DNA of 64,000 nt from Planctomycetota bacterium (GTDB taxonomy: Bacteria; Planctomycetota; Uabimicrobiia; Uabimicrobiales; Uabimicrobiaceae). Both the position numbers and the translations under genes were made by a program. The stretch's first letter is position 1. The number at the start of each line of letters is the position of its first letter. The stretch covers positions 1-64,000 of the forward strand of contig JAJDCR010000041.1 in NCBI GenBank assembly GCA_029260735.1, read 5' to 3'. Of the stretch, positions 23,771-55,080 are shown piece by piece. The notes below the pieces were generated by a model. That model worked only from the letters and a program-made list of their open reading frames with translations. It was not told where the DNA came from and did not search any database.

Positions 23771-24334
23771 CTATTTTTTTCTCTGCAAAAACAACCCCAA
23801 ACCACCCATAATCATCAAGACAATACTATTCACTTCGGGAACACTAGCTTCTTGGACTTGGAAAGTTAAATCATCCCAAGCGTCCGAGCCGCTAAAAAGA
23901 CTGATCAGATCAACACGGCGAATATTATCCGCTTCTACTGATAACAAATCAAACTGAACCGAGGTATTGACAAAGTCTTCGGCAACTTTTGTTCCTGAAA
24001 TATCAAAGGCTTCAATCCTCATCCCTGCGGTAAGGTTATCCGCTCCTGGCCCAGAGAGAGCAATAATGGAAAAAAAGTTTATGTCAAAGTCAAAAGTGAC
24101 ACTACCGATTTGTCCTCCACAGTTTCCAACACAGATACTATTGGGAGCAGAGGCACTACCATTATTAGGATCATCAAAAACGGAACCAGCGAGGGGTGTG
24201 ATGGCAATATTTGGCGTAAAATGAATCCCTAGTGCATCTAGCTCTGCTAAGTTTTGGTCTTCAAAATTAACAAAAGTACTCGCCCAAAGAGAGCTACAAA
24301 AGAGACACAGCGTAAGTAAGAGAAAATGGCGCAT
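23771..24334 (-). CDS. PEP-CTERM-like secreted protein
   Basis: 187 residues from the ATG at 24334, chosen because CAGGAG precedes it. Signal peptide LLLTLCLFCSSLWAS; a beta-rich middle with FDFDINFFSIIALSG and DNIRRVDLIS; a tail of SVPEVNSIVLMIMGGLG and QRKK. The motif is PEV in place of PEP, so recognition by an exosortase is likely but less certain than for its relatives here. Confidence 0.75.
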   Translation of the reverse strand: MRHFLLLTLCLFCSSLWASTFVNFEDQNLAELDALGIHFTPNIAITPLAGSVFDDPNNGSASAPNSICVGNCGGQIGSVTFDFDINFFSIIALSGPGADNLTAGMRIEAFDISGTKVAEDFVNTSVQFDLLSVEADNIRRVDLISLFSGSDAWDDLTFQVQEASVPEVNSIVLMIMGGLGLFLQRKK

Positions 24335-24433
24335 GAGAATACTCCTGATGGAATTCATAAAAATAACTATTTTTCTGCTTTCATAATACCCTATTTACTT
24401 GAAAAATTTCAAGTAAAATTAAAAATCAAGTCA

Positions 24434-25426
24434 TTAATAAGTGCAAGGGAAAAATATCCTCTCGGGTATATGCTTTAAGAGCTCCTTTGTGCAAAAATTG
24501 ATCATTTCTTCTTGTTTATCTTCTTCATAAGAAATCATCTTATTTCTTTCTTCCATGGCAACAGCAAAGAGTTTTTCGTCAGGATAAAGTTGATGCATTC
24601 TTTGATAGATCGGCTTAGGTAAGCGAAAGGGGCCCAAACTGACAGAGTGAATAGACTCCACTTCCAAGCGTGAAAAAACAAGGGCAAATAGCTCCTCATA
24701 ATTTTTTTGGAAGTTGCTATGGAAAATTAAAGGATCAAACCGAAGTCCAATGGGCCATCCTTGCTTTTGCAGTTTTTCGACTGCAGCAAGACGGCTTTTC
24801 AAAGGCGGAACTTTCGCTTCCCACTCCTGACTAATCTCTTGGGGAGTAAAACTGAAAGCAACAATGCAATTGGGCATTGCCTCTCGCGAAAGAAGAGATT
24901 TTGTTTGAACGCTTTTTGTTCTTAACTCCAAATAAGCTTGAGGATGCTCGGCAAAAAAATCTAGAAATTCAGAAATAAAATGGGTAACGGAATCTAAAGC
25001 TAGACTATCACAGTCATAGCCAGAAAAAAAGTAAAGAGGTTTCCCTTCTTCTTCCTTTATTTTTTCCGTAATGGCTCCTTGAAAATCTTCAAAATTAACA
25101 AACAAAAGATAGTGAGCCGAGCGGTACATACCTTGCAAAAAACAATAGCGACAATCATAAATACAGTTGAGCATGTGAGAAAAATAATAGTTTTGATCTC
25201 CTCCAATACCATACCCCTCTGGAGTTACGTGGAGAAAGCGATTATTTTTTCGAGCAAGAATGAGAGCGGGATTTTTCTTTTGTAAACGAAAATTCTGATT
25301 ATGGCGATTAAAAACTTCGCCATAATGGTGGCAAGGAATAGTGCGGGCTTTCTGAAATCTTTGACAAATCTCTTGAACCCGAGGATGTTCCTGAATATCT
25401 TCTTCGATATAAATAGTGTCTATCAT
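24434..25426 (-). CDS. Spore-photoproduct-lyase-like radical SAM protein
   Basis: 330 residues. The radical SAM cluster motif CIYDCRYC (CxxxCxxC) lies in SHMLNCIYDCRYCFLQ, as in SplB. A further Cys in GYDCDSLALDSVTHF sits where SplB has its hydrogen-donor Cys, so a photoproduct-repair role is plausible. SplB reverses the 5-thyminyl-5,6-dihydrothymine photoproduct; SPL-family relatives also occur in non-sporulating bacteria with unknown substrates. Its start overlaps the stop of the WD40-serpin gene by 4 bases, so the two are translationally coupled. Confidence 0.85.
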   Translation of the reverse strand: MIDTIYIEEDIQEHPRVQEICQRFQKARTIPCHHYGEVFNRHNQNFRLQKKNPALILARKNNRFLHVTPEGYGIGGDQNYYFSHMLNCIYDCRYCFLQGMYRSAHYLLFVNFEDFQGAITEKIKEEEGKPLYFFSGYDCDSLALDSVTHFISEFLDFFAEHPQAYLELRTKSVQTKSLLSREAMPNCIVAFSFTPQEISQEWEAKVPPLKSRLAAVEKLQKQGWPIGLRFDPLIFHSNFQKNYEELFALVFSRLEVESIHSVSLGPFRLPKPIYQRMHQLYPDEKLFAVAMEERNKMISYEEDKQEEMINFCTKELLKHIPERIFFPCTY

Positions 25427-28400
25427 AAATTCTCATTAGGATGAACGAGCTGACCTAGAAAAAAAATTGTTTTTGTGTTACTGTCTCCAATAACATAAAA
25501 AAAGGGCCGATTCAAGATCATTTCAAAGATATTCATTTGCTGAGGAGGTCCTAATTCTTCTTGAGAGACAATATGGGCCTCTCCTTTTTCTTCAACAAAA
25601 AAAATATTATTTTGCTGAAACTGATTTGGCAAAACCAGTTTATTTTGATCTAAGGGTAGCGGTTTTGTTTTACTTAAGCTCAAGTTAGAAGAGAACATCG
25701 GCTTCATAATATCATCGATGAACACGTTACATTTTTGTTGAAAACGGGGAAGAACCACGTGTCCGACCATAGGTTGGAATTTCTTCAGCCAATATCCCCA
25801 CTTTTCGTAATTAAGTTTTTCATAGAAAGAAGAAAGCCCTTCCTGTTCATCAGGAAGAAAAAGATAAAGAAACATATCTCCTCCGGCGTAAGGCAGAGCT
25901 ACGGCCTGAAAACCATCTTCTTGGTGGTATAAATAATAACCGAGCTGAGACATCATCGGAAAGTCTATACTTTTTCTCTTAGAAAGAAAAAATGCTCGCT
26001 TTCTCGTACTATCCGAGCCAAAGGACAAAAGCCAAGATCCTTGATAAGTATTTTCATTCAAAAAAGTTATTCGAGTAGAATTTTGATGAGATCGGATCTG
26101 TGCAGTGTAGTTATTTTTAATATCAACTGTAGGATAAAGATTCCGAAAATAATTTTCCAACATAGTACTATTGTCTTTAATCCGAGAAGCGCTTATTTGA
26201 GCAAAAGCTGTATCTTGAAATATTTTGGAAGAAACTATTCCTTCTCCCAGTCCATCATTTACCCCTGTGATCATAAAGGTAGGTGAAATGAGAATATTCT
26301 CTTGAGGAAATCCTTTAGCTAGTTCAAGAAAAGCGTGAATCGAGAGATTTCCCTGAGCTTCAATAACTTCTGGGTCAATAGTGTCGCTGCTTTTCCAAAC
26401 TAAAACTTTTCGAGAAGTACTCCCGTATGCATTCAAGGCTACGATTTCAATCGTATTTGCTCCAGGTAGCAAATCAACCTTCCAAGACAAAGTAATCCCT
26501 TGAGAGTATTGATTCTTCTCTGCGATTGCCATAATTTTTTGCCTTTTTAGCTTGACCCTAACATCTTCCTCATTATCAATATTCAAAAAAGAAGCGGAAA
26601 GAAGTAAAGTATCACTAAAAGTAGCAAAAGGAACTGTTAGAGGGTGTAAAACATCTATTTTAGGATATACTTCAGGAGCAATAGAGGGCAATCTTTCTGT
26701 TTCTGAAATTTGCCACAGATAAAGAGAGGAGTCATCACCGGCACTGGCCAAAGTATTGCTAGTTTCATCAAAAGTAACCCCCCAAACCCAGTCAGAGTGA
26801 CGATTCAAGGTGCTTATAAGAGTACCTGTTTGGATCGACCACAATCGAACAGATTGATCCCAACTACTACTTGCCAAAATTCTTCCAGAAGGATGAAAAG
26901 CAAGCTCTGTAACATTTTCTTGATGTCCCTTTAATGCAGCAAACTCTTCTCCTGTCTTAATAAACCAAAGACGAATAGCCTTATCAATGCCTGCACTCGC
27001 AATAACCTCTCCTGTAGGACTAAAGCAAAGCGACCAAACTCCTCCCTTGTGGCCATCTAGCACTTTCAGAAGGCTTTTGCGAGAAAAAGACCAGAGTTTA
27101 ATTTTGTCGCTTTCTCCTCCGCAGCCAAAAGTTTCTCCATCGGGACTAAAAGCAACCGAAAATATAGGTCCCATCTCGGGACTAAAAACATCTACTTCAT
27201 CTTCCTCTAAATTCCACAGACGCATAGTTTCGTCGTCACTACCGCTGAGTAAATATTTTCCATCGGGACTAAAGGCAAGACTAGAAACTACTCCCTCATG
27301 CCCGCTTAAAGTAGACAATCTATTACCATCAGGAAAAGACCATAAGGTTACTTGCCCATTTCCACCAGCCAAAGCAATGCTCTTTCCATCAGGATGAAAA
27401 GCCAAATCTCTAATAAAACCTTGATCTTGGGCAAAGGAGTAGAGAAGCTTTCCACTTTTTGTCTCCCAGACTTGCGCCTCTTCAGATCCTCCACAAACTA
27501 AATACGTACCAGAGGGGTGGAAGTCTGTCGAATAAATATCTTGTTGCTTTGAGGGTAAACTTTTCCAAAAGGAACCTTGTAAAAACTCTGTTGACCGCAG
27601 CTCTATCTGTAACTTTTGTGCTTGAGTTCCATGATTGTTAATGGCAACTATCTCAAAATCATTCTCTTTTTCTAAAAGATCAACATCCCAACTAACAACA
27701 AAACCATCCTCTAGTTGATGTTCTTTCAGAGGAAAAAAACGTTTTTCCTGATAATTTAGTCTTACCTCATCTAGTTTTTCAACATTTGTTATTTGAGCAA
27801 CAATCCGAAAAATACTACTCGAGGTTTTATGTAGCCTTGCCCCAGGCGAAAGCAAGTGAATTTCAGGAACGAACCGATTTCCTTCTTGAGATGGCTCTGC
27901 TCCCTCCACTCTCCAAACTTTTAAACTACAATCATCTCCACTACTAGCAAGAAGATCTTGGTTGCGAGAAAAGGCAAGAGTATGTATCCCCTCAGAGTGT
28001 CCTTTAATTGTGGCAAGTAAAATAGAGGTAATCGATGACCAAACTTGAATATCTCCCCCTGCCCCTCCCCCAGCAAAGAAATTTCCAGAGCGATGAAAAG
28101 AAAGTGCTTCTATGGGTAGCTCCGTTGGAATCGTTTTTAAAATTTCTCCGGTTTTCATCGACCAAAGATAAATTTTTTGATCTCTTCCTGCGCTCGCCAA
28201 AATTTTTCCATCAGGAGAAAAGCAAATTGCCTGAACCCAGTCTTGGTGGCCTTGTAAAGAAGTAATTTTTTTTCCTTCTATCCAAGACCAAAGCACTATT
28301 AGGTGATCATCACTAGCGCTAACCAAAGTCTCTCCGTCGGGACTGAAAGCAAGACTATTAACACTTCCTTGATGGTCAGTTAGCGTTGCCACCTCTACTC

Positions 28401-30075
28401 TCTCAGAAACAGACCATACCTTAATCATTCGATCATTTCCCGCACTTGCTAGGAATTTACCATCAGGACTAAAACTTACTGACCATATATAGTCTTGGTG
28501 TCCCAAAAAAGTAGTCAATAGCTTTCCTTCGGAAAGCGACCAAAGTTTTATCGTCTTGTCAAAACTAGCGCTCGCAAGAATTTTTCCATCTGGGCTAAAG
28601 CATACCTGACTAATGCCATTTCCATGTCCCTCTAGGGAAAGAAGTAAACTTTGGTTTTCCACTAACCACACATCAATAGTTTTACTCTCTCCTGCCGTCG
28701 CCAAAAATTTACCATCGGGGCTAAAGTTTACTGACCATACTGTATCGGAGCGGTTAGTAAAAGTGCGGTCTAAAGAAGTTTTAACAAACTCCTCTGGGAT
28801 ATAGGAGATGTTGATCTCTTTGGTGCTATTTCCATATTTGTTCCGAGCAAATAGAGAAAATTTATTTTGACCAGGGATCAAATCCAAATCCCAAATGAAA
28901 GAGTTTTTATCACCTTCTAAGGAAATTATATCTTGAGCTCTTCTTTTTTCTTGATTAGCTCCCACCAGATAGACATTATCTGAATCTACATTTTTTACAT
29001 TTACTCGAACTCTTAATGAACTAATGGAAGTATGTTCCCGTCCTACCTGCGGAGAAATAATATCCAGTTGAGGGAGCAACTTAAAAACAGCCTGCTCTTC
29101 AACCTCCTCTAAGTTTTTTATTTCCCATAACTTAAGAGTTTTATCCCAACCTCCGCTGGCCAATATATTTTTTTTAGGATGGTAGCAGACAGTCCATACC
29201 CTTTCACTGTGTCCTTGCCATTTTTCTAAAACAACTCCTAGTTTTATCGACCACAGATGAATCGTTTTATCATTGCTACCACTCGCTAAAATACGACTAT
29301 CCGGACTAAAAGAAAGAGTATAGACTTTTCCTTTATGGCCCTTTAGTGTCTTGATCAGCTTGCCATTTCTTGTAGACCACACTTTAATCGTTTTATCTCG
29401 ACTTGCGCTTGCTAAAAGCTTCCCATCGGGACTAAAACGAAGACACTCAATAGAGCTTTGGTGTCCTCGCCAACTTCTCTTAAACCTTTTTTCTTTAATA
29501 GACCAAAGTTTAATTTTTCCTTCCCAACCTGCACTGGCTAGAATTTCTCCGTCTGGAGAAAATTCTGTGGTATAAACTCCTCCTTGGTGGGAAAAAGTAT
29601 GAGTATTCTCACCACTGGGCAAAGACCAAACCTTTACTTTGCGGTCAGAGCTTCCACTCGCTAGTAATTTTCCATCAGGACTAAAAGAAACGGTCTCAAC
29701 AGATCCAAAATGTCCGAGTAAAGTTTTACGGAGAGTCCCTGTAGTAACATCCCACAAACATACTTTATTATTACCGCTCCCGCTCGCTAAAAGATCCCCC
29801 TTGGGGCTAAAGGCAACCGTGTTGACAACCCAGGAGTCCACTGGTAAGCTAACGTACTCTCTTCCTTCGGGAAGAGACCAAATTTTGATGGTTTTATGAG
29901 TTCCCGCACTAGCTAAGAGTTTTCCATTCGGGCTAAAAGCGACAGAGTTAATGCTCCAAAATTTACCTGTAATTTCTTTCCACTCACTAACGGAAGAGGA
30001 AACTTGAGAAGATAGAAAGGGAGATAGGATGAAAAAAATGCAGATGGTGTAGATAGCGTGTTTGATATGTAGCAT
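25423..30075 (-). CDS. Secreted three-propeller WD40 protein with C-terminal serpin domain
   Basis: 1550 residues from the ATG at 30075 (a TTG one codon earlier is less likely). A signal peptide (ICIFFILSPFLSS) is followed by seven WD40 repeats (about residues 40-330), an Ig-like linker, seven more repeats (about 440-730), a second linker, seven more (about 830-1130) and a third linker; repeats read FSPDGK-LASG-D-TIKLWS. From about residue 1235 (nucleotides 25423-26376) the protein is a serpin: TRITFLNENTYQGSW, FFLSKRKSIDFPMMSQ, AVALPYAGGDMFLYLFLPDE, the hinge VEEKGEAHIV and RPFFYVIGD with FFLGQLVHP. The helical part before the hinge is about 60 residues shorter than usual, and the hinge lacks the Thr and Ala run of inhibitors, so inhibition is uncertain. 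Confidence 0.88.
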   Translation of the reverse strand: MLHIKHAIYTICIFFILSPFLSSQVSSSVSEWKEITGKFWSINSVAFSPNGKLLASAGTHKTIKIWSLPEGREYVSLPVDSWVVNTVAFSPKGDLLASGSGNNKVCLWDVTTGTLRKTLLGHFGSVETVSFSPDGKLLASGSSDRKVKVWSLPSGENTHTFSHQGGVYTTEFSPDGEILASAGWEGKIKLWSIKEKRFKRSWRGHQSSIECLRFSPDGKLLASASRDKTIKVWSTRNGKLIKTLKGHKGKVYTLSFSPDSRILASGSNDKTIHLWSIKLGVVLEKWQGHSERVWTVCYHPKKNILASGGWDKTLKLWEIKNLEEVEEQAVFKLLPQLDIISPQVGREHTSISSLRVRVNVKNVDSDNVYLVGANQEKRRAQDIISLEGDKNSFIWDLDLIPGQNKFSLFARNKYGNSTKEINISYIPEEFVKTSLDRTFTNRSDTVWSVNFSPDGKFLATAGESKTIDVWLVENQSLLLSLEGHGNGISQVCFSPDGKILASASFDKTIKLWSLSEGKLLTTFLGHQDYIWSVSFSPDGKFLASAGNDRMIKVWSVSERVEVATLTDHQGSVNSLAFSPDGETLVSASDDHLIVLWSWIEGKKITSLQGHQDWVQAICFSPDGKILASAGRDQKIYLWSMKTGEILKTIPTELPIEALSFHRSGNFFAGGGAGGDIQVWSSITSILLATIKGHSEGIHTLAFSRNQDLLASSGDDCSLKVWRVEGAEPSQEGNRFVPEIHLLSPGARLHKTSSSIFRIVAQITNVEKLDEVRLNYQEKRFFPLKEHQLEDGFVVSWDVDLLEKENDFEIVAINNHGTQAQKLQIELRSTEFLQGSFWKSLPSKQQDIYSTDFHPSGTYLVCGGSEEAQVWETKSGKLLYSFAQDQGFIRDLAFHPDGKSIALAGGNGQVTLWSFPDGNRLSTLSGHEGVVSSLAFSPDGKYLLSGSDDETMRLWNLEEDEVDVFSPEMGPIFSVAFSPDGETFGCGGESDKIKLWSFSRKSLLKVLDGHKGGVWSLCFSPTGEVIASAGIDKAIRLWFIKTGEEFAALKGHQENVTELAFHPSGRILASSSWDQSVRLWSIQTGTLISTLNRHSDWVWGVTFDETSNTLASAGDDSSLYLWQISETERLPSIAPEVYPKIDVLHPLTVPFATFSDTLLLSASFLNIDNEEDVRVKLKRQKIMAIAEKNQYSQGITLSWKVDLLPGANTIEIVALNAYGSTSRKVLVWKSSDTIDPEVIEAQGNLSIHAFLELAKGFPQENILISPTFMITGVNDGLGEGIVSSKIFQDTAFAQISASRIKDNSTMLENYFRNLYPTVDIKNNYTAQIRSHQNSTRITFLNENTYQGSWLLSFGSDSTRKRAFFLSKRKSIDFPMMSQLGYYLYHQEDGFQAVALPYAGGDMFLYLFLPDEQEGLSSFYEKLNYEKWGYWLKKFQPMVGHVVLPRFQQKCNVFIDDIMKPMFSSNLSLSKTKPLPLDQNKLVLPNQFQQNNIFFVEEKGEAHIVSQEELGPPQQMNIFEMILNRPFFYVIGDSNTKTIFFLGQLVHPNENL

Positions 30076-30127
30076 CAAAAACTCATGGGTAATGAATTAG
30101 GTTTGTGAAAAAATTAAGTCTATATTT

Positions 30128-31473: not shown

Positions 31474-34400
31474 CTAGCGTTTGCCTAAAGTTACTTCTAC
31501 CTGCAAGGTTTTGTTTTGGCGTTGAAACTGAACATTTACTTTATCTCCCACTTTGTGCTCACGAAGAGCATGGGCTAACTGAGCTAGGTCGTCAGTTGGA
31601 AAACTTCCCACTTTCTGTATAATATCTCCCTTTTTTAAACCCGCTTTAGCGGCGGGAGAATCCGGGACTACACCAGTCAATCGGACTCCTTTCCCTACAT
31701 AGGTAAAATCAGGGACACTTCCTAAACTAGCTCTTTTTTTGCTAGAAGGAGAAGAGGGGGTGGGGTTTGTTTTTGATAATTGAGATGTCAATGGTTGAGG
31801 ACGAGAGGCCAAGTACTCTAATGCTTCTGATGTAATCAGAGTCACTTTAATCAATCCATCTAGGGAAATCTTATCTGTAGTATCTTGGGGCGTATGTAAA
31901 TCAATATGAGCCCCGGAAAAAATTTGTACAGAAGGAATTCCTTTTTCCTGAAAACTAACATGATCACTACTAGAGATCGTTTTAGGAACAGATTGGACAG
32001 GCACATTCGTAACAGCTCCGCAACCGAAAAACAAAAAGGGCCACTCGCGCGCCGAGTTAGTTCCCAGTATCATTAAGGGCTGTTTTTCTAAACGTCCTAC
32101 CGTATCAAGGTTAATCATTGCCAAAACTTTAGAGTAGTCTTTTGCAGGCCACTGAGAAACAAAATAACGCGATCCCAAGAGTCCAGCCTCTTCTCCACTA
32201 AAAGAAATAAAGAGAATAGGCCGAGGGACAGATTTACTTTTAAAAATATTTGCCAGCTCTAAAAGAACTGATACCCCGCTTGCATTATCGTCTGCTCCAG
32301 AGTGGACTTTTCCCTGGTTGTTTGCTTTGACATCAGGCCATCCCAAGCCTAAATGGTCATAATGAGCAGCTATAATCACCGGAGAGTCTTGGTACTTAGG
32401 ATCACTTCCCGGCAATCTACCGACAACGTTTTTCAGGGTCATAAAACGCAAGGGATTTCCCGTTTTGACTTGCCAACTTTGGAAAAAGCTGTTGGCATCT
32501 CCTGCAGGTTCTAATCCAATGCTCTGAAATTGCTCAGCAATATATTGAGCAACTTGGTCAAGTTCGGGACTTCCTAGCCCTCTTCCTTTTTTGTTAGAGT
32601 CGCCAATGTACTCAAGATGTTTTTTTAAACGTTCTCGATTAACAGGAGAAGGTAACTCAGCTAAAGCGTGACGGGGAGGAAAAGGTTTTGGCGCCACTAA
32701 AGTGTTTGTAAAAAAATGAGTCATTTGGGAATGAACAATCGGCCACTGGCCTTTTTCAATATTGTCCGCCTTGGTACCAGTAAAAGCCAAATAGCTGTAT
32801 TTGCCATAGTGAGGGAGTTTTCTAGCCAGGTGAGTTAAAGCTTCCTGGGGGCCCCCCACAATCCAGCCTAAAGCAAGGTCTTCATCCTTGGGATGAGCGG
32901 CGGTAAGAACAACTATGTTCTCGGACAAGTCTATGCTTTTTTCTTGAATACGTATTTTCTTTGTGCTAATCAATCCACCGCGGTCTTTCAACCACGGGCC
33001 AAAAGAAGAGGCAAAACGATTGTTTTTTCCGACAAGCCAAACCGATGCTTTTTCAGGAAGCTTATCTATCTCATTATCCCGAATAAATTTGATTGGGAGA
33101 ACTCGGCCTCGGTTCCAAGCTTGCAAAGCTCTCTCGCTTTCTTTTATCCACTCTTTATTCTCTTCACTTGAAAGAATAACACACAAACGAGGACTTCCAA
33201 AAACCTGCCCCATTGAAGAAGGTATCTCACTGCGATCAACTCGCCGAAAAAGATCAAAATAAGGATCAATATCTAAACGAAGTGCTTTCTCTGGTAAATC
33301 AAGAGAAACAGTAGCTTTCTTCTCTGATAAAGAAACTTTTTGGATTTGAGCTTTCTCAGCCTTTGAAAAAGTGATCGCTATCGGAATTTCCATTTCAAGA
33401 GGGTCTGTCGTGCCGCTTTGCTCTAAGGTAAACTCCAGTTTGTTTTGTCCCGCTTGCTTTTTCTGAGAAATTTCTGACACTCGAATTTGAGGAGCACCTT
33501 CTCGCTCAACCCTTTCCGAGAAAAATCGTTTAAGATCTTGTCCAGAAACCTCACTAAAAACACGTTCTATATCAAAAAAAGTAGCTTTTTGAAACCGGTG
33601 GTCTAGAAAAAACTTACGCAAAGCTTTGATAAAAAGACGATCTCCTACTCTCATCCTAAGTTCATGAAAAAGCATCAGTGATTTTCCGTAGCCGACCGCT
33701 TCTGTGGCCGGAGAATGTCTTGCTCGAAACGCCAATAAGGCAAAATCTTCTTGGTCTCGAACAAAATCGCGATACTTTTGCAAAACATTACGACGGTAAA
33801 GATGGCCTTGTCCCCCTTGTTCTTTGAAGAGATGATCGGCCAAATAAGCAGTTAGTCCTTCGCACCAGTTGCCTTTTTCATAATCGACAAAGACTCCATT
33901 TCCCCACCAGTTGTGCAATATTTCATGAGGATAAGAAGACCTCAAAATAAAAGGAAAACGAATAATTCTTTGTCCCAACAAGGTAAAGGAAGGCATTCCA
34001 TAGCCACTTTCCCAGAAATTTTCCACTAAAGCAAATTTCTGGTAAGGATATTCTCCTAAAAGTTGCTCATACATCAAAAGATACTGATGGGTTGCTGTAA
34101 GATACTTTTGGGCTAAAGCTTTATCTTTTTCATGCAAATACACTAAAGCAGTAACGTCATTCTGGGTATCTTCATAGCGAACAAGAGGCCCTCCGACAAT
34201 ATAGATTTCCTCCATCGGAATAGAGCAATCCCAGACGACCGTACGAGTTTCCTCTTGCTTTTCTTGTCTCAAGACTTCCTTTCCTTGGGAGATAATTTCC
34301 CAGTTAGCTGGGCCAGTAACCTCCAAACGAAAAGAAACCATTTCATCTTTCCCTTGAGGATACCAAAAACTAGAACTCGAAAGATAAACTCCCTCAGTTG

Positions 34401-34860
34401 AAATAATCCCGGCTGTTTCCTGAAAGCTGCGGGTATACTCCTGCTTTTGTTGCTTCAGAGGTGCCTTAACCGTACCTCGATAACGAAGGGATATATCACA
34501 TTGACGAGTAGATATTTCCTGGAGGGGTGTCAGTAGATAGGCCTTTACAGGAACCAGAGTTTTTGGATCAATAATGTAGGAGTTTATTCCCATTTTGCTT
34601 TTTTGAATCGCTCCTAAATCATCTAATTTCCACTCAGGGGAAAGGACTTCGACAGTAAAATTCCCATGAAGAAAAAACATTAAAGAATCTTGAGGATGGG
34701 ACAAGCGACAAGTCATTATGTCTTGAGCTTCTAAAGTTTGATTCTCAGGAGAAAGATCTACAGTGATACTATGAGCAGCAATCTCTGCCCCTGATACACT
34801 GCTAAAGGAAGGGACAATAAAAAAAAAGAGGATGGTGAAGAAAGCAAGTCGTGTAAGCAT
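31474..34860 (-). CDS. Exported M1-M28-PDZ metallopeptidase fusion
   Basis: 1128 residues with a signal peptide. The first half is an M1 (aminopeptidase N-like) unit: HEILHNWWGN supplies HExxH and the third zinc ligand is the Glu in GNWCEGLTAYL. The second half is an M28 peptidase with ligands in AAHYDHLG, GADDNASG, FSGEEAGLLG, NLDTVGR and SSDHVSF. A C-terminal PDZ domain follows (VGKGVRLTGVVPDSPAAKAG, KGDIIQKVG). Two complete zinc aminopeptidase centres on one exported chain would let it strip peptides outside the membrane, with the PDZ domain holding partners. In the M1 site the spacing from HExxH to Glu is one residue short of E. coli PepN. Confidence 0.9.
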   Translation of the reverse strand: MLTRLAFFTILFFFIVPSFSSVSGAEIAAHSITVDLSPENQTLEAQDIMTCRLSHPQDSLMFFLHGNFTVEVLSPEWKLDDLGAIQKSKMGINSYIIDPKTLVPVKAYLLTPLQEISTRQCDISLRYRGTVKAPLKQQKQEYTRSFQETAGIISTEGVYLSSSSFWYPQGKDEMVSFRLEVTGPANWEIISQGKEVLRQEKQEETRTVVWDCSIPMEEIYIVGGPLVRYEDTQNDVTALVYLHEKDKALAQKYLTATHQYLLMYEQLLGEYPYQKFALVENFWESGYGMPSFTLLGQRIIRFPFILRSSYPHEILHNWWGNGVFVDYEKGNWCEGLTAYLADHLFKEQGGQGHLYRRNVLQKYRDFVRDQEDFALLAFRARHSPATEAVGYGKSLMLFHELRMRVGDRLFIKALRKFFLDHRFQKATFFDIERVFSEVSGQDLKRFFSERVEREGAPQIRVSEISQKKQAGQNKLEFTLEQSGTTDPLEMEIPIAITFSKAEKAQIQKVSLSEKKATVSLDLPEKALRLDIDPYFDLFRRVDRSEIPSSMGQVFGSPRLCVILSSEENKEWIKESERALQAWNRGRVLPIKFIRDNEIDKLPEKASVWLVGKNNRFASSFGPWLKDRGGLISTKKIRIQEKSIDLSENIVVLTAAHPKDEDLALGWIVGGPQEALTHLARKLPHYGKYSYLAFTGTKADNIEKGQWPIVHSQMTHFFTNTLVAPKPFPPRHALAELPSPVNRERLKKHLEYIGDSNKKGRGLGSPELDQVAQYIAEQFQSIGLEPAGDANSFFQSWQVKTGNPLRFMTLKNVVGRLPGSDPKYQDSPVIIAAHYDHLGLGWPDVKANNQGKVHSGADDNASGVSVLLELANIFKSKSVPRPILFISFSGEEAGLLGSRYFVSQWPAKDYSKVLAMINLDTVGRLEKQPLMILGTNSAREWPFLFFGCGAVTNVPVQSVPKTISSSDHVSFQEKGIPSVQIFSGAHIDLHTPQDTTDKISLDGLIKVTLITSEALEYLASRPQPLTSQLSKTNPTPSSPSSKKRASLGSVPDFTYVGKGVRLTGVVPDSPAAKAGLKKGDIIQKVGSFPTDDLAQLAHALREHKVGDKVNVQFQRQNKTLQVEVTLGKR

Positions 34861-47459: not shown

Positions 47460-50400
47460 ATGTCCATGGCTAACGAAGAAAAACAGAGACGATATTTCCT
47501 CATCGCTTGTTTTTATCTATTTTTGTCCTTAGGATATTCCCAAGACAATGAGGATCTGGAGCAACTTAATGCTCAGGTTCTAAAAGCATACCAAGAAGGC
47601 AAGTATAAAGAGGGGATTGCTTTAGCAGAGAAAGCTTATCGTATGAGTACTTCTTCTTTAGGAGAAAAGCATCTATCTACGATAATATCAATGAACAGCT
47701 TGGCCGCATTGTATTGTGCGCAAGGAAAATACAGTAAATCCAAACCACTGTTTGTAAAGATTCTAAAGCTGACAAGAGAAGTCTTGGGCGAAAAACATCC
47801 ATTCACTCTAAAATCGATGAACAATCTGGCATCATTCTATTCTTCTCAAGGAGAATATAGCAAAGCTGAATCACTGCTTATAAAAACTTTTCTCCTAATG
47901 AAAGAAGCATTAGGAGAAAAGCATTCTTCTACCCTAACTTCCATGAACAACCTGGCAGAGTTATATAAATCACAAGGACAATACAATAAAGCCGAACCAC
48001 TGCTTGTAAAGACTTTACTCCTAATGAAAGAAGGGCTGGGAGAAAAGCATCCCGATACCCTAATTTCCATGAACAATCTAGCAGGATTATATGAGTCACA
48101 AGGACAATACAGTAAAGCCGAACCAATCTATATAAAAACTTTACACTTAAGAAGAGAAGTATTAGGAGAAAAGCATCCCTCTACCTTAACTTCCATGAAC
48201 AATCTGGCAGGATTATATGAGTCACAAGGACAATACAGTAAAGCCGAACCAATCTATGTAAAAACTTTACTCCTAATGAAAGAGGTATTAGGAGAAAAGC
48301 ATCCCTCTACCTTAACTTCCATGAACAATCTGGCACAGTTGTATTCTTCTCAGGGAGAATACACCAAAGCTGAGCCTATCTATGTAAGAACTTTGTTACT
48401 AACAAAAGAAGCATTGGGAGAAAAACATCCCTCTACCCTAACTTCAATGACCAATCTGGCACAGTTGTATTTTTCTCAGGGAGAATACACTAAAGCTGAG
48501 CCTATCGGTGTAAGAACTCTGCTACTAATGACAAAAATATTGGGGGAAAAACATCCCCATACTCTGGTTTCGATGAACAGTCTAGCCCAATTATATAGAT
48601 TACAAGGAAAATACAGTAAAGCTGAGGCAATCTATATAAAGACTTTGCAGCTAAGAGTAGAAGTATTGGGCGAAAAACATCCCCATACTCTAATTTCCAT
48701 GAGTAATCTGGCTGGAGTATATGAGTCACAGGGAGAATATACGAAAGCAGAGCCTTTGTTTCAAAAGGTTTTGTTACTAACAAAAGAAATATTGGGGGAA
48801 AAACATCCCTCCACTCTAGTTTCCATGAACAACTTGGCACAAATGTACAGATCACAAGGAGAATACAGTAGAACCGAGCCCTTGCTTATAAAGGCTCTAT
48901 CCCTAATGAAAGAAGTATTGGGCGAAAAACATCCCCATACCCTAAATTCCATGAGCAATCTAGCACAATTGTATTTTTCACAGGGAGAATACACGAAAGC
49001 TAAACCAATAATGGTAAAGGCTTTGAGGCTAAAAAGAGAAGTTTTAGGAGAAAAACATCCCGATACTCTAACTTCAATGAACAATCTCGTCGGACTGCAT
49101 GATTCGCAAAAAGAATATACAAAAGCCGAACCACTGCTTGTAAAGATTTTGCTGCTAACAAGAGAAAAATTGGGCGAAAAACATCCCGATACTCTAAGAG
49201 CTATGAACAACTTGGCGGCATTGTATCAATCACAAGGAAAATATACGAAAGCCAAACTACTGTTTGCAAAGACTTTTCTTCAGATAAAAGAAGTTTTAGG
49301 AGAAAAACATCCCGATACTCTAAGAACTATGAACAATCTGGCCCAATTGTATTCTTTTCATGGAGAATACACTAAAGCCGAACCACTGCTTGTAAAGACC
49401 TTGCTACTAACAAAAGAACTGCTCGGAGAAAAACACCCCGACACTCTAAATTCAATGAACAACCTAGCAGCATTATATAGGTCTTTGGGAAAGTACAATA
49501 GTGCATTATCTATTTTAAAAGAGCATTTAGAAAAAAAATGTCTATTTCTAAAGGGAGAGCTGCGAGGAAACTCGGAAAAAACTAGATTGAGAATGTTAGA
49601 GCAGTTTAATCTTGCCTATGATAAGAATAGTTTATTTTCCATTTTAAAGGAATATAGAAAAGAAGATTTTGATAGCTTAGCCCTTTATTTTTCAGCGAAT
49701 TACAAAGGGATACTTTTGCAAATTTCTCGAGAGTTAAAGCAAATATTCACCGACATTGCGGACCAGGAGTTACTAAAAGAGTTATCAGAGAAGAGATCGG
49801 CTTACTCTAGTTTGTCTTTGGATTATGAAAAACGAAAAAAGAACAGATTTTTAGTTGAGAAATTGGAAAAAGAAATAGATGAGCTAGAAAAGAAACTAAT
49901 TTGGAAAAGCAGTGATTTCAAGGACTTAGTCTCAGATGTAAAAACGGAAGAGATTAAAAAAGCTCTTTTGAAAGATGAGTTAATTATAGACTTTGTCATT
50001 TATAAGTCCGTTATCATACAAAAAAATGAGTTAGTGGCAATTATCGTAAGTCAAAGTGGTATAAAACTAGTTAACCTCGGAGAGTTTGAAGATATTTTAA
50101 ATTTGATAAAAAACTACCGAAGTAAACTTCAAAAGAAAGAAGAAGCAAAAGAATTGTCCCAGAAAATCTATGAAAGAATATTTTCTCCTCTAGGAAAATC
50201 CCTGCAAGGAAAAAATAAAGTATACATAGTACCCGATGGAATTTTGCACCTACTACCGTTCAGATCTTTAATCGAAAAAGATGGGGAATATCTAGCCAAG
50301 AACAAAAACGTAGTGATACTTTCTTCGAGCAGAGATCTGGTAAGAAAGAGCATGAAGAAAAGCAATAAATTAGCAATGATTTTTGCTTTTCCGAATTATG

Positions 50401-51281
50401 GAAGGGGAGAAGGTAAGCAAATCATAGAGGATAGAACAATTCAATTTTCCTCCTTAGGAGGAACCTTAGGGGAAGCTCAGGCCATCTCCTCTATCCTAAA
50501 TATCCCCACCAAAGTTTATACACAAGATCAAGCAAGCGAAAAAAACATTTCAAAAGTCGATTCTCCCCAAATTTTACACATCGCCACTCATGGGTATTTT
50601 CTAGATGCACCAGAAGAAATTCGAGAAGATCAAGCAAGTTTTTCAATGAAGAAAGTTATGTCAAATAAAGATTTCTTCGAGAAAAAACTAAGCAACCCCC
50701 TAGTTTACTCAGGGTTGGCCTTTGCAGGAGCGAATAATCAGGGAGAAGATGGAATATTAACAGCTCTGGAAGTATTAGGGTTAGATCTTTCCGGCACGGA
50801 TTTAGTAGTTCTCTCCGCCTGTGAAACAGGTGTAGGAGAAATTCGCCAAGGAGAAGGGGTCTATAGCCTACAAAGAGCTTTTCGAGAAGCAGGCGCTAAG
50901 TCCGTTCTGGCAACCTTGTGGAAAGTAGATGACAGGGCAACTCAGCTCTTCATGAAGAAGTTCTATCAACGATACATGAGAGGAATGTCGGCTCAGAAAG
51001 CGGTAAGAGATACCCAACTAGAGTTTTTAATGAGCAAAAGATACTCTCACCCTTTCTATTGGTCTTCCTTTGTCGTAATTGGTGGCCCATCAGATGATAT
51101 GGACCAAAAAAATGTAGTTGTTGCCAAAAAGCAAAAAAATGGCTTCCTTATTCCCTTCGTTTTACTTAGCATAGCAATTGTGCTAACCGTTTTTTTGGTA
51201 TTAGCGTACAGAAAAAAAGAGAAAAGACTTCTGCAAGAAAGAATCGCTAGGCGAAAAAAACGTAGGGAAAGAAAAGAGTAG
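47460..51281 (+). CDS. Membrane-anchored TPR-CHAT protein (caspase-like protease)
   Basis: 1273 residues. An N-terminal hydrophobic segment (FLIACFYLFLSLGYS) is followed by about 15 kinesin-light-chain-type TPR units of 42 residues, each with LGEKHP and SMNNLA. A linker of about 230 residues leads to a CHAT domain with both catalytic residues: His1044 in HIATHGYFL and Cys1121 in VLSACETGVG. A C-terminal membrane helix (FVLLSIAIVLTVFLVLAY) and a basic tail close the chain. CHAT proteases such as TPR-CHAT of type III-E CRISPR cut target proteins when the TPR part senses a partner; no such partner gene is adjacent, so the target is unknown. Confidence 0.92.
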   Translation: MSMANEEKQRRYFLIACFYLFLSLGYSQDNEDLEQLNAQVLKAYQEGKYKEGIALAEKAYRMSTSSLGEKHLSTIISMNSLAALYCAQGKYSKSKPLFVKILKLTREVLGEKHPFTLKSMNNLASFYSSQGEYSKAESLLIKTFLLMKEALGEKHSSTLTSMNNLAELYKSQGQYNKAEPLLVKTLLLMKEGLGEKHPDTLISMNNLAGLYESQGQYSKAEPIYIKTLHLRREVLGEKHPSTLTSMNNLAGLYESQGQYSKAEPIYVKTLLLMKEVLGEKHPSTLTSMNNLAQLYSSQGEYTKAEPIYVRTLLLTKEALGEKHPSTLTSMTNLAQLYFSQGEYTKAEPIGVRTLLLMTKILGEKHPHTLVSMNSLAQLYRLQGKYSKAEAIYIKTLQLRVEVLGEKHPHTLISMSNLAGVYESQGEYTKAEPLFQKVLLLTKEILGEKHPSTLVSMNNLAQMYRSQGEYSRTEPLLIKALSLMKEVLGEKHPHTLNSMSNLAQLYFSQGEYTKAKPIMVKALRLKREVLGEKHPDTLTSMNNLVGLHDSQKEYTKAEPLLVKILLLTREKLGEKHPDTLRAMNNLAALYQSQGKYTKAKLLFAKTFLQIKEVLGEKHPDTLRTMNNLAQLYSFHGEYTKAEPLLVKTLLLTKELLGEKHPDTLNSMNNLAALYRSLGKYNSALSILKEHLEKKCLFLKGELRGNSEKTRLRMLEQFNLAYDKNSLFSILKEYRKEDFDSLALYFSANYKGILLQISRELKQIFTDIADQELLKELSEKRSAYSSLSLDYEKRKKNRFLVEKLEKEIDELEKKLIWKSSDFKDLVSDVKTEEIKKALLKDELIIDFVIYKSVIIQKNELVAIIVSQSGIKLVNLGEFEDILNLIKNYRSKLQKKEEAKELSQKIYERIFSPLGKSLQGKNKVYIVPDGILHLLPFRSLIEKDGEYLAKNKNVVILSSSRDLVRKSMKKSNKLAMIFAFPNYGRGEGKQIIEDRTIQFSSLGGTLGEAQAISSILNIPTKVYTQDQASEKNISKVDSPQILHIATHGYFLDAPEEIREDQASFSMKKVMSNKDFFEKKLSNPLVYSGLAFAGANNQGEDGILTALEVLGLDLSGTDLVVLSACETGVGEIRQGEGVYSLQRAFREAGAKSVLATLWKVDDRATQLFMKKFYQRYMRGMSAQKAVRDTQLEFLMSKRYSHPFYWSSFVVIGGPSDDMDQKNVVVAKKQKNGFLIPFVLLSIAIVLTVFLVLAYRKKEKRLLQERIARRKKRRERKE
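47640..49500. repeat. 126-base tandem repeats inside the TPR-CHAT gene
   Basis: About 15 units of 126 bases; neighbours such as those starting near 48040 and 48165 are nearly identical over long runs. Such repeats can gain or lose units by recombination and would alter sensor length in whole 42-residue steps. Confidence 0.85.
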
Positions 51282-54253: not shown

Positions 54254-55080
54254 TTTTGTTACGCCCTTTCAGGGCATTTTGTGCGTGGGGGAGGATTGGT
54301 TTCCCCAATTCATTTTGCACGAAGAGGATTGTTTTCTCTGGCGTTATTCGTGGGGAGGATGGTTTTCTCTAGGCGTTATATTTTCTCAGGGCGTTGCCCT
54401 GAGCTGGGTTGTGTCGTTCTTTCAGAACTCTGCGTTGGTTCTTTATTTTCTCTAGGTGTTGTGCGTGAAGAATGGGTTTCTCTGGGCGTTATCTGCATTG
54501 TCCGCAGGAAGGATTGTTTTCTTTGGGCCTTGTCCACGAGGAAAATTGGTTTCTCAAATCATTTTGCGTGTTGTCCGCGGAGAGGAATGTTTTCTCTGTG
54601 TTGTGTGCAGAGAGAATTTTTTTCTATTGGCGTTGTCCGTGGAGGATTGTTTTCTCTTAGAAAATATAGTGCTGAGAGGTAAAGTAAATATAAAGTAACT
54701 TTTTTGACTTGGAAAAATAAAGAACCCAATGCAAAGTTCTGAAAGAACGACACAACCCAGCTCAGGGCAACGCCCTGAGAAAACATAACGCCTAGAGAAA
54801 CCTTTCTTTTTCACGGACAACGCCAGAGAAAATAATCCTCTTCGTGCAAAATGAATTAGGGAAACCAATTCTCCCGTGGACAACGCCAGAGAAAACAATT
54901 CTCCTGCGCACAACGCCAGAGAAAACAATCCTTCCTGCGCACAATGCAGATAACGCCCAGAGAAACCCATTCTTCACGCACAACACCTAGAGAAAATAAA
55001 GAACCAACGCAGAGTTCTGAAAGAACGACACAACCCAGCCTAGGATGAAGTCCTAGGGAAACCAAGCCCAAGGAAGAACA
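54254..55080. repeat. Large imperfect palindrome of transposase-associated repeats
   Basis: Units such as GTTGTCCGCAGGAAGGATTG, GTTTTCTCTGGCGTTGTCC and CTCAGGGCGTTGCCCTGAG occur forward from 54254 to about 54700 and inverted from about 54715 to 55080. At least 300 bases of one half recur in the other, with units shuffled. All open frames here (for example 54281-54682 and 54554-54970) are repeat-encoded peptides and not genes. Confidence 0.85.

Follow-up and report, generated by a model that had tools for sequence, protein, structure and literature searches.

A planctomycete gene joins three WD40 propellers to a C-terminal serpin that has probably lost protease trapping

The window analysed here, a stretch of 64,000 nucleotides from a Planctomycetota genome (8.7 Mb in 174 contigs, 83% complete), carries on its minus strand an uninterrupted frame at 25423-30078. 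A TTG lies directly before the ATG at 30075 and would give 1551 residues if used as the start; counted from the ATG, the gene occupies 25423-30075, exactly where a preliminary description of the locus had placed it. The 1,550-residue product carries three WD40 propellers of seven blades, each followed by a linker, and ends in a serpin; its parts are as follows:

25423-30075, minus strand: whole coding sequence, 1550 aa from the ATG at 30075 to the stop at 25423
29998-30075, minus strand: putative signal-peptide-like N-terminus (MLHIKHAIYTICIFFILSPFLSSQ), from hydropathy
29095-29982, minus strand: WD40 propeller 1, seven repeats, from Pfam and W-ending motifs
28750-29094, minus strand: linker 1, homologous to linkers 2 and 3 by linker-linker comparison
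27901-28749, minus strand: WD40 propeller 2, seven repeats, from Pfam and W-ending motifs
27544-27900, minus strand: linker 2, from linker-linker comparison
26701-27543, minus strand: WD40 propeller 3, seven blades in the model, from Pfam, predicted structure and Foldseek
26386-26700, minus strand: linker 3, predicted eight-strand beta sandwich at moderate confidence, from comparison and model
25426-26385, minus strand: serpin domain with some 50 residues missing between helix B and strand 3A, from sequence and model
25438-26088, minus strand: part of the serpin matched by Pfam Serpin, profile 148-370
25510-25593, minus strand: non-canonical hinge and reactive-centre-loop equivalent (EEKGEAHIVSQEELGPPQQMNIFEMILN), from alignment

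The stop of the fusion gene is overlapped by four bases by the start of a radical SAM gene resembling spore photoproduct lyase (SPL-like; 24434-25426, minus strand), and we know of no spore formation in the host group of this gene. One other member of the family was present among the genomes compared, belonging to another genus (G089; 9.50 Mb, one contig); it carries a single copy of the SPL-like gene at 62% identity, beside which a nucleosidase-like gene, recognized by eye, occupies the place of the fusion. Because G089 keeps the SPL-like gene without the fusion, this neighbour was given no functional weight. Two genes upstream of the fusion, at 31474-34860 on the minus strand, a probably exported (predicted) protein combines M1-like and M28 peptidase domains with a C-terminal PDZ domain, and three further genomes of the order have a conserved M1 part at 48-55% identity. 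Serpins usually trap serine or cysteine endopeptidases, and therefore this peptidase, whose domains belong to metallopeptidase families, was set aside as a target of the serpin. Elsewhere in the window, the gene at 47460-51281 (plus strand) encodes a 1273-residue protein in which a CHAT (caspase-like) domain comes after many TPR repeats; a small, probably exported (predicted) protein without a Pfam match, at 23771-24358 (minus strand), has an end, VPEVNSIVLMIMGGLGLFLQRKK, that resembles a PEP-CTERM sorting tail; and 55013-55057 (minus strand) matches the Rfam Acido-Lenti-1 RNA over the gathering score.

On sequence, the WD40 assignment is beyond doubt. Pfam WD40 matched the chain with an E-value of 1.2e-196, with 17 stretches individually significant, and the pattern of W-ending motifs, together with two extra repeats read by eye, gave 21 repeats grouped 7/7/7, the same number and grouping as first described. 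In the Pfam scan of the full chain, the best 25 of 58 families were WD40 or propeller models. Propeller 3 and linker 3 were modelled from the three internal copies alone, and the predicted propeller has seven blades and resembles 7bie and 5yzv (Foldseek TMt about 0.93). WD40 domains have expanded greatly in this lineage, with 109 matches in the source genome and 232 in G089. Together with genome size and taxonomic isolation, this expansion suggests that the two genomes belong to the Ca. Uabimicrobium family (PMC11032199, PMC11481906). The three linkers are homologous to one another, sharing 12 invariant columns, and one retrieves the others at E-values of 1.8e-6 and 4e-4. An Ig-like linker had been proposed after each propeller; three homologous linkers are indeed present, and the one modelled, linker 3, is predicted to be Ig-like with eight strands (pLDDT blocks mostly 54-86), but the one scanned against Pfam, linker 1, had no match. 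A search for kin of linker 1 elsewhere in the source genome and the sister genus returned nothing beyond a marginal match (E 0.03) to an otherwise unrelated protein. The chain has one strongly hydrophobic stretch, of 19 residues, at the N-terminus, and this hydropathy suggests that the protein is probably exported. Neither Pfam nor hydropathy revealed a membrane anchor or signalling domain in the chain.

The C-terminal domain is certain to be a serpin, as the preliminary description had recognized, by both profile match and predicted fold. PF00079 matched strongly within the C-terminal 320 residues (E 6.9e-37, 128 bits against a cut-off of 27, profile 148-370), and phmmer against the PDB returned 182 sequences at E<=0.01, including neuroserpin, antithrombin, PAI-1 and, as the best, conserpin (E 6e-19). 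An AlphaFold2 model built with 75 sequences predicted a serpin fold with sheets A, B and C (pLDDT 78, pTM 0.81); confidence exceeded 90 in the core and was low in the loop and in the stretch before strand 3A. When this model was compared with solved serpins by Foldseek (TMq 0.63-0.83, best E about 2e-21), all of the 50 matches listed were serpin structures or serpin complexes. The helical part is short, as had been noted, but by less than the roughly 60 residues first estimated. Residues 9-41 of the serpin segment align weakly (4.4 bits) with helix A/strand 6B of conserpin (NILISP versus NIFFSP), and 61 residues separate the two conserpin-matched parts here versus 112 in conserpin, a shortfall of about 51 residues between helix B and strand 3A. 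The alignment gaps coincide with the hC/hD-s2A and helix-F stretches, and a full helical part with helices C, D and F is not present. Because profile and fold both place the domain in the superfamily, the short helical part was regarded as a variant feature of a serpin.

The hinge reads EEKGEAHIVS, whereas 66 of 74 related bacterial serpins from many phyla have ExGTEAAAxT, and GTEAAAAT or a close version is present in all 20 planctomycete serpins compared, including three full-length ones from the sister genus. It likewise departs from the published P17-P9 motif of inhibitory serpins, ExGTEAAAA (PMC8233489). Since 8 of the 74 relatives also miss the pattern, some only slightly, the hinge alone is no proof of non-inhibition. 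Conserved columns, defined as those shared by at least 70% of the 74 related serpins, are unevenly retained: between s3A and s3B the domain has 22/34 of them and at its C-terminus 10/12, against 4/11 in the hinge and loop, 2/13 across hH-s5A and 7/38 ahead of s3A. This is probably the pattern expected if a stable B/C core was kept and the machinery that opens sheet A was lost. Because the hinge consensus and conserved sheet-A residues are lost while the B/C core is kept, the serpin appears to be non-inhibitory and has probably lost protease trapping, which supports the earlier suggestion of a binding module in place of an inhibitor. It is distinctly unlikely that the serpin still traps a protease despite its odd hinge, with the propellers placing it in the manner of docked cellulosomal serpins that protect their complex. 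The loop is indeed of about normal length, from the EEKG hinge to the NRPFF strand, s1C and the C-terminus are well kept, the peptidase two genes upstream is probably exported, and a precedent exists in PinA, a modular cellulosomal serpin of Clostridium thermocellum cited in PMC12484212 as an inhibitor of subtilisin-like proteases. However, charged or bulky residues (E, H, I, V) occupy the hinge positions of small residues, whose absence had been pointed out before, 11 of the 13 columns conserved in hH-s5A have been altered or lost, the helix D and F regions are reduced, and the M1 and M28 families of the neighbouring peptidase are not usual serpin targets.

The serpin of the fusion is the only one found in the 83% complete source genome, and four genomes of the order's other family gave no serpin match at E<=0.001. 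G089 has three ordinary full-length serpins and one degenerate, helix-poor serpin-like lipoprotein. This last protein (L034:1333-2574, minus strand), lipoprotein-like and 413 residues long with a weak serpin match (profile 134-369), has even fewer helical-part residues than the serpin of the fusion and is without an inhibitory hinge. The fusion's serpin was too divergent to be placed in the tree, with an end branch of 2.26 versus a median of 0.37, about six times as long; a common clade with the G089 serpins was not rejected (p-AU 0.50). Probably, a serpin was joined to one of the WD40 proteins that have multiplied in this lineage, and then lost its trap function. The long end branch, the 51 lost residues and the failure to find an ortholog of the fusion in the genomes searched would also suit a decaying remnant of an inhibitory serpin that has drifted since the fusion, the WD40 part alone being functional. 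We consider such decay rather unlikely, given that the 320 codons of the serpin part contain no stops or frame breaks, that their codon usage is native, resembling that of the neighbouring genes, and that conserved residues of the B/C core and C-terminus were selectively kept (32/46), with a confidently modelled core.

Serpins were found in 119 of 392 Planctomycetota genomes, and inspection of ORF lengths among the stronger matches, which were those listed, gave no second chain of this kind. Nor did a WD40-serpin fusion turn up among some 85 serpin genes taken from named genomes across many phyla. Within 147 serpin ORFs, both domains were matched only in overlapping copies of the fusion gene itself. 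A single-sequence serpin scan of the genome contigs gave no matches, and an alignment-based scan gave 80 loci, none with a WD40 fusion. Ten long serpin ORFs of other Planctomycetota were scanned and rejected as the same architecture, being ECF sigma-serpin, FecR-like-serpin or serpin without another Pfam domain, and no WD40 match was found in them. Our literature search returned no description of a WD40-serpin fusion either, so the earlier statement that none is described, like the search for the same domain order, held within the genomes, ORFs and literature covered, which are a part of all public proteins. WD40-serpin is a new domain architecture made from known parts and seen once, a real combination of moderate interest that was not found elsewhere in these searches.

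Several other serpin arrangements were observed along the way. A kinase-WD40 gene (L152:904-4320, plus strand) lies directly 5' of a stand-alone serpin gene (L152:4428-5639) on the same strand of one Planctomycetota genome, and among Bacteroidaceae, a 917-residue frame (L156) has two tandem serpins and a 1226-residue frame (L147) has a serpin after an N-terminal stretch of 800 residues. ECF sigma-serpin proteins occur in several genomes, all of one Planctomycetota family (f47), and were confirmed by Pfam at L071:1546-3756(+), L064:7640-9904(+), L065:2682-5426(-), L068:2613-4715(-) and L070:1748-3949(+), and recognized by eye at L064:418-2652(+) and L075:2576-4675(-). Their N-terminal Sigma70 r2 and r4 are followed near residue 257-312 by a hydrophobic transmembrane-like stretch, and they end in a full-length serpin; they look like membrane-tethered sigma factors with the serpin outside, possibly protease-sensing regulators; a description of them was not found in the literature. 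As these proteins suggest sensory use of serpins in the phylum, the WD40-serpin protein might be a protease-sensing switch, in which a protease, foreign or the bacterium's own, cuts the serpin loop and thereby reshapes or frees the serpin, so that a signal passes through the propellers. This is very unlikely, because the residues lost from the hinge and sheet A speak against a large switch by loop insertion and the chain carries neither a membrane anchor nor a signalling domain.

Taken together, we favour, as somewhat better than an even chance, a model in which the protein is an exported multivalent binding scaffold with a non-inhibitory serpin as a binding head. The signal peptide would take the chain out of the cytoplasm, and the three seven-bladed propellers, with putative Ig-like domains between them, would offer several protein-binding faces in series. 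The C-terminal serpin fold would add a further binding head, whose surface or exposed loop would recognize a partner without the covalent trapping and loop insertion by which inhibitory serpins act. If so, bacteria put the serpin fold to use simply for binding, as one module of a large exported scaffold, and the missing helical segment is a natural test that would separate the parts a serpin requires to fold from those that serve the inhibitory transition alone. More tentatively, and with a good deal less confidence, the serpin, stripped of helix F and the inhibitory hinge, could be a stable recognition head on the exported WD40 scaffold that non-covalently captures specific proteases or peptides, of prey or its own, in a lineage related to prey-engulfing bacteria. 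Such a head would represent a serpin-based adaptor outside the inhibitor paradigm, and would imply that a serpin core folds without that helical region.

Non-inhibitory serpins such as ovalbumin, maspin, angiotensinogen and HSP47 retain the fold and have lost inhibition, and the serpin of the fusion probably resembles them in having a serpin fold without inhibitory function; they differ in being eukaryotic, single-domain proteins with a full helical part, and are only distant sequence kin. To our knowledge, sequence has been the main ground for inferring non-inhibitory serpins in bacteria, and few bacterial serpin fusions, the cellulosomal ones, have been described. Prokaryotic serpins of the inhibitory type (miropin, Nostoc, Poribacteria and the designed conserpin) have the fold and the C-terminal 217 residues in common with the fusion, and identity to bacterial relatives reaches 34% over the matched part. 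The helical part is complete in nearly all of the aligned prokaryotic serpins and ExGTEAAAxT is present in most, whereas the serpin of the fusion has neither, is about 51 residues shorter before s3A and sits behind three propellers. Cellulosomal serpins such as PinA are, like the probably exported fusion, bacterial serpins exported as a module of a larger assembly; PinA is a cellulosome module and reported inhibitor according to the citing source, whereas the fusion has a WD40 partner and no inhibitory hinge, and separate Pfam scans of its serpin part and of linker 1 showed no dockerin. With the WD40 proteins and WD40-kinases of Planctomycetota (Ca. Uabimicrobium, Gemmataceae), the fusion shares long, lineage-expanded arrays of WD40 repeats. 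A location of such arrays outside the cytoplasm has been predicted before, the WD40 parts of Ca. Uabimicrobium kinases being predicted to be periplasmic (PMC11032199), and the fusion is likewise probably exported. Unlike the WD40-kinases, it has no kinase and instead combines its propellers with a C-terminal serpin and with linkers of a type found, within the source genome and the sister genus, only in this protein.
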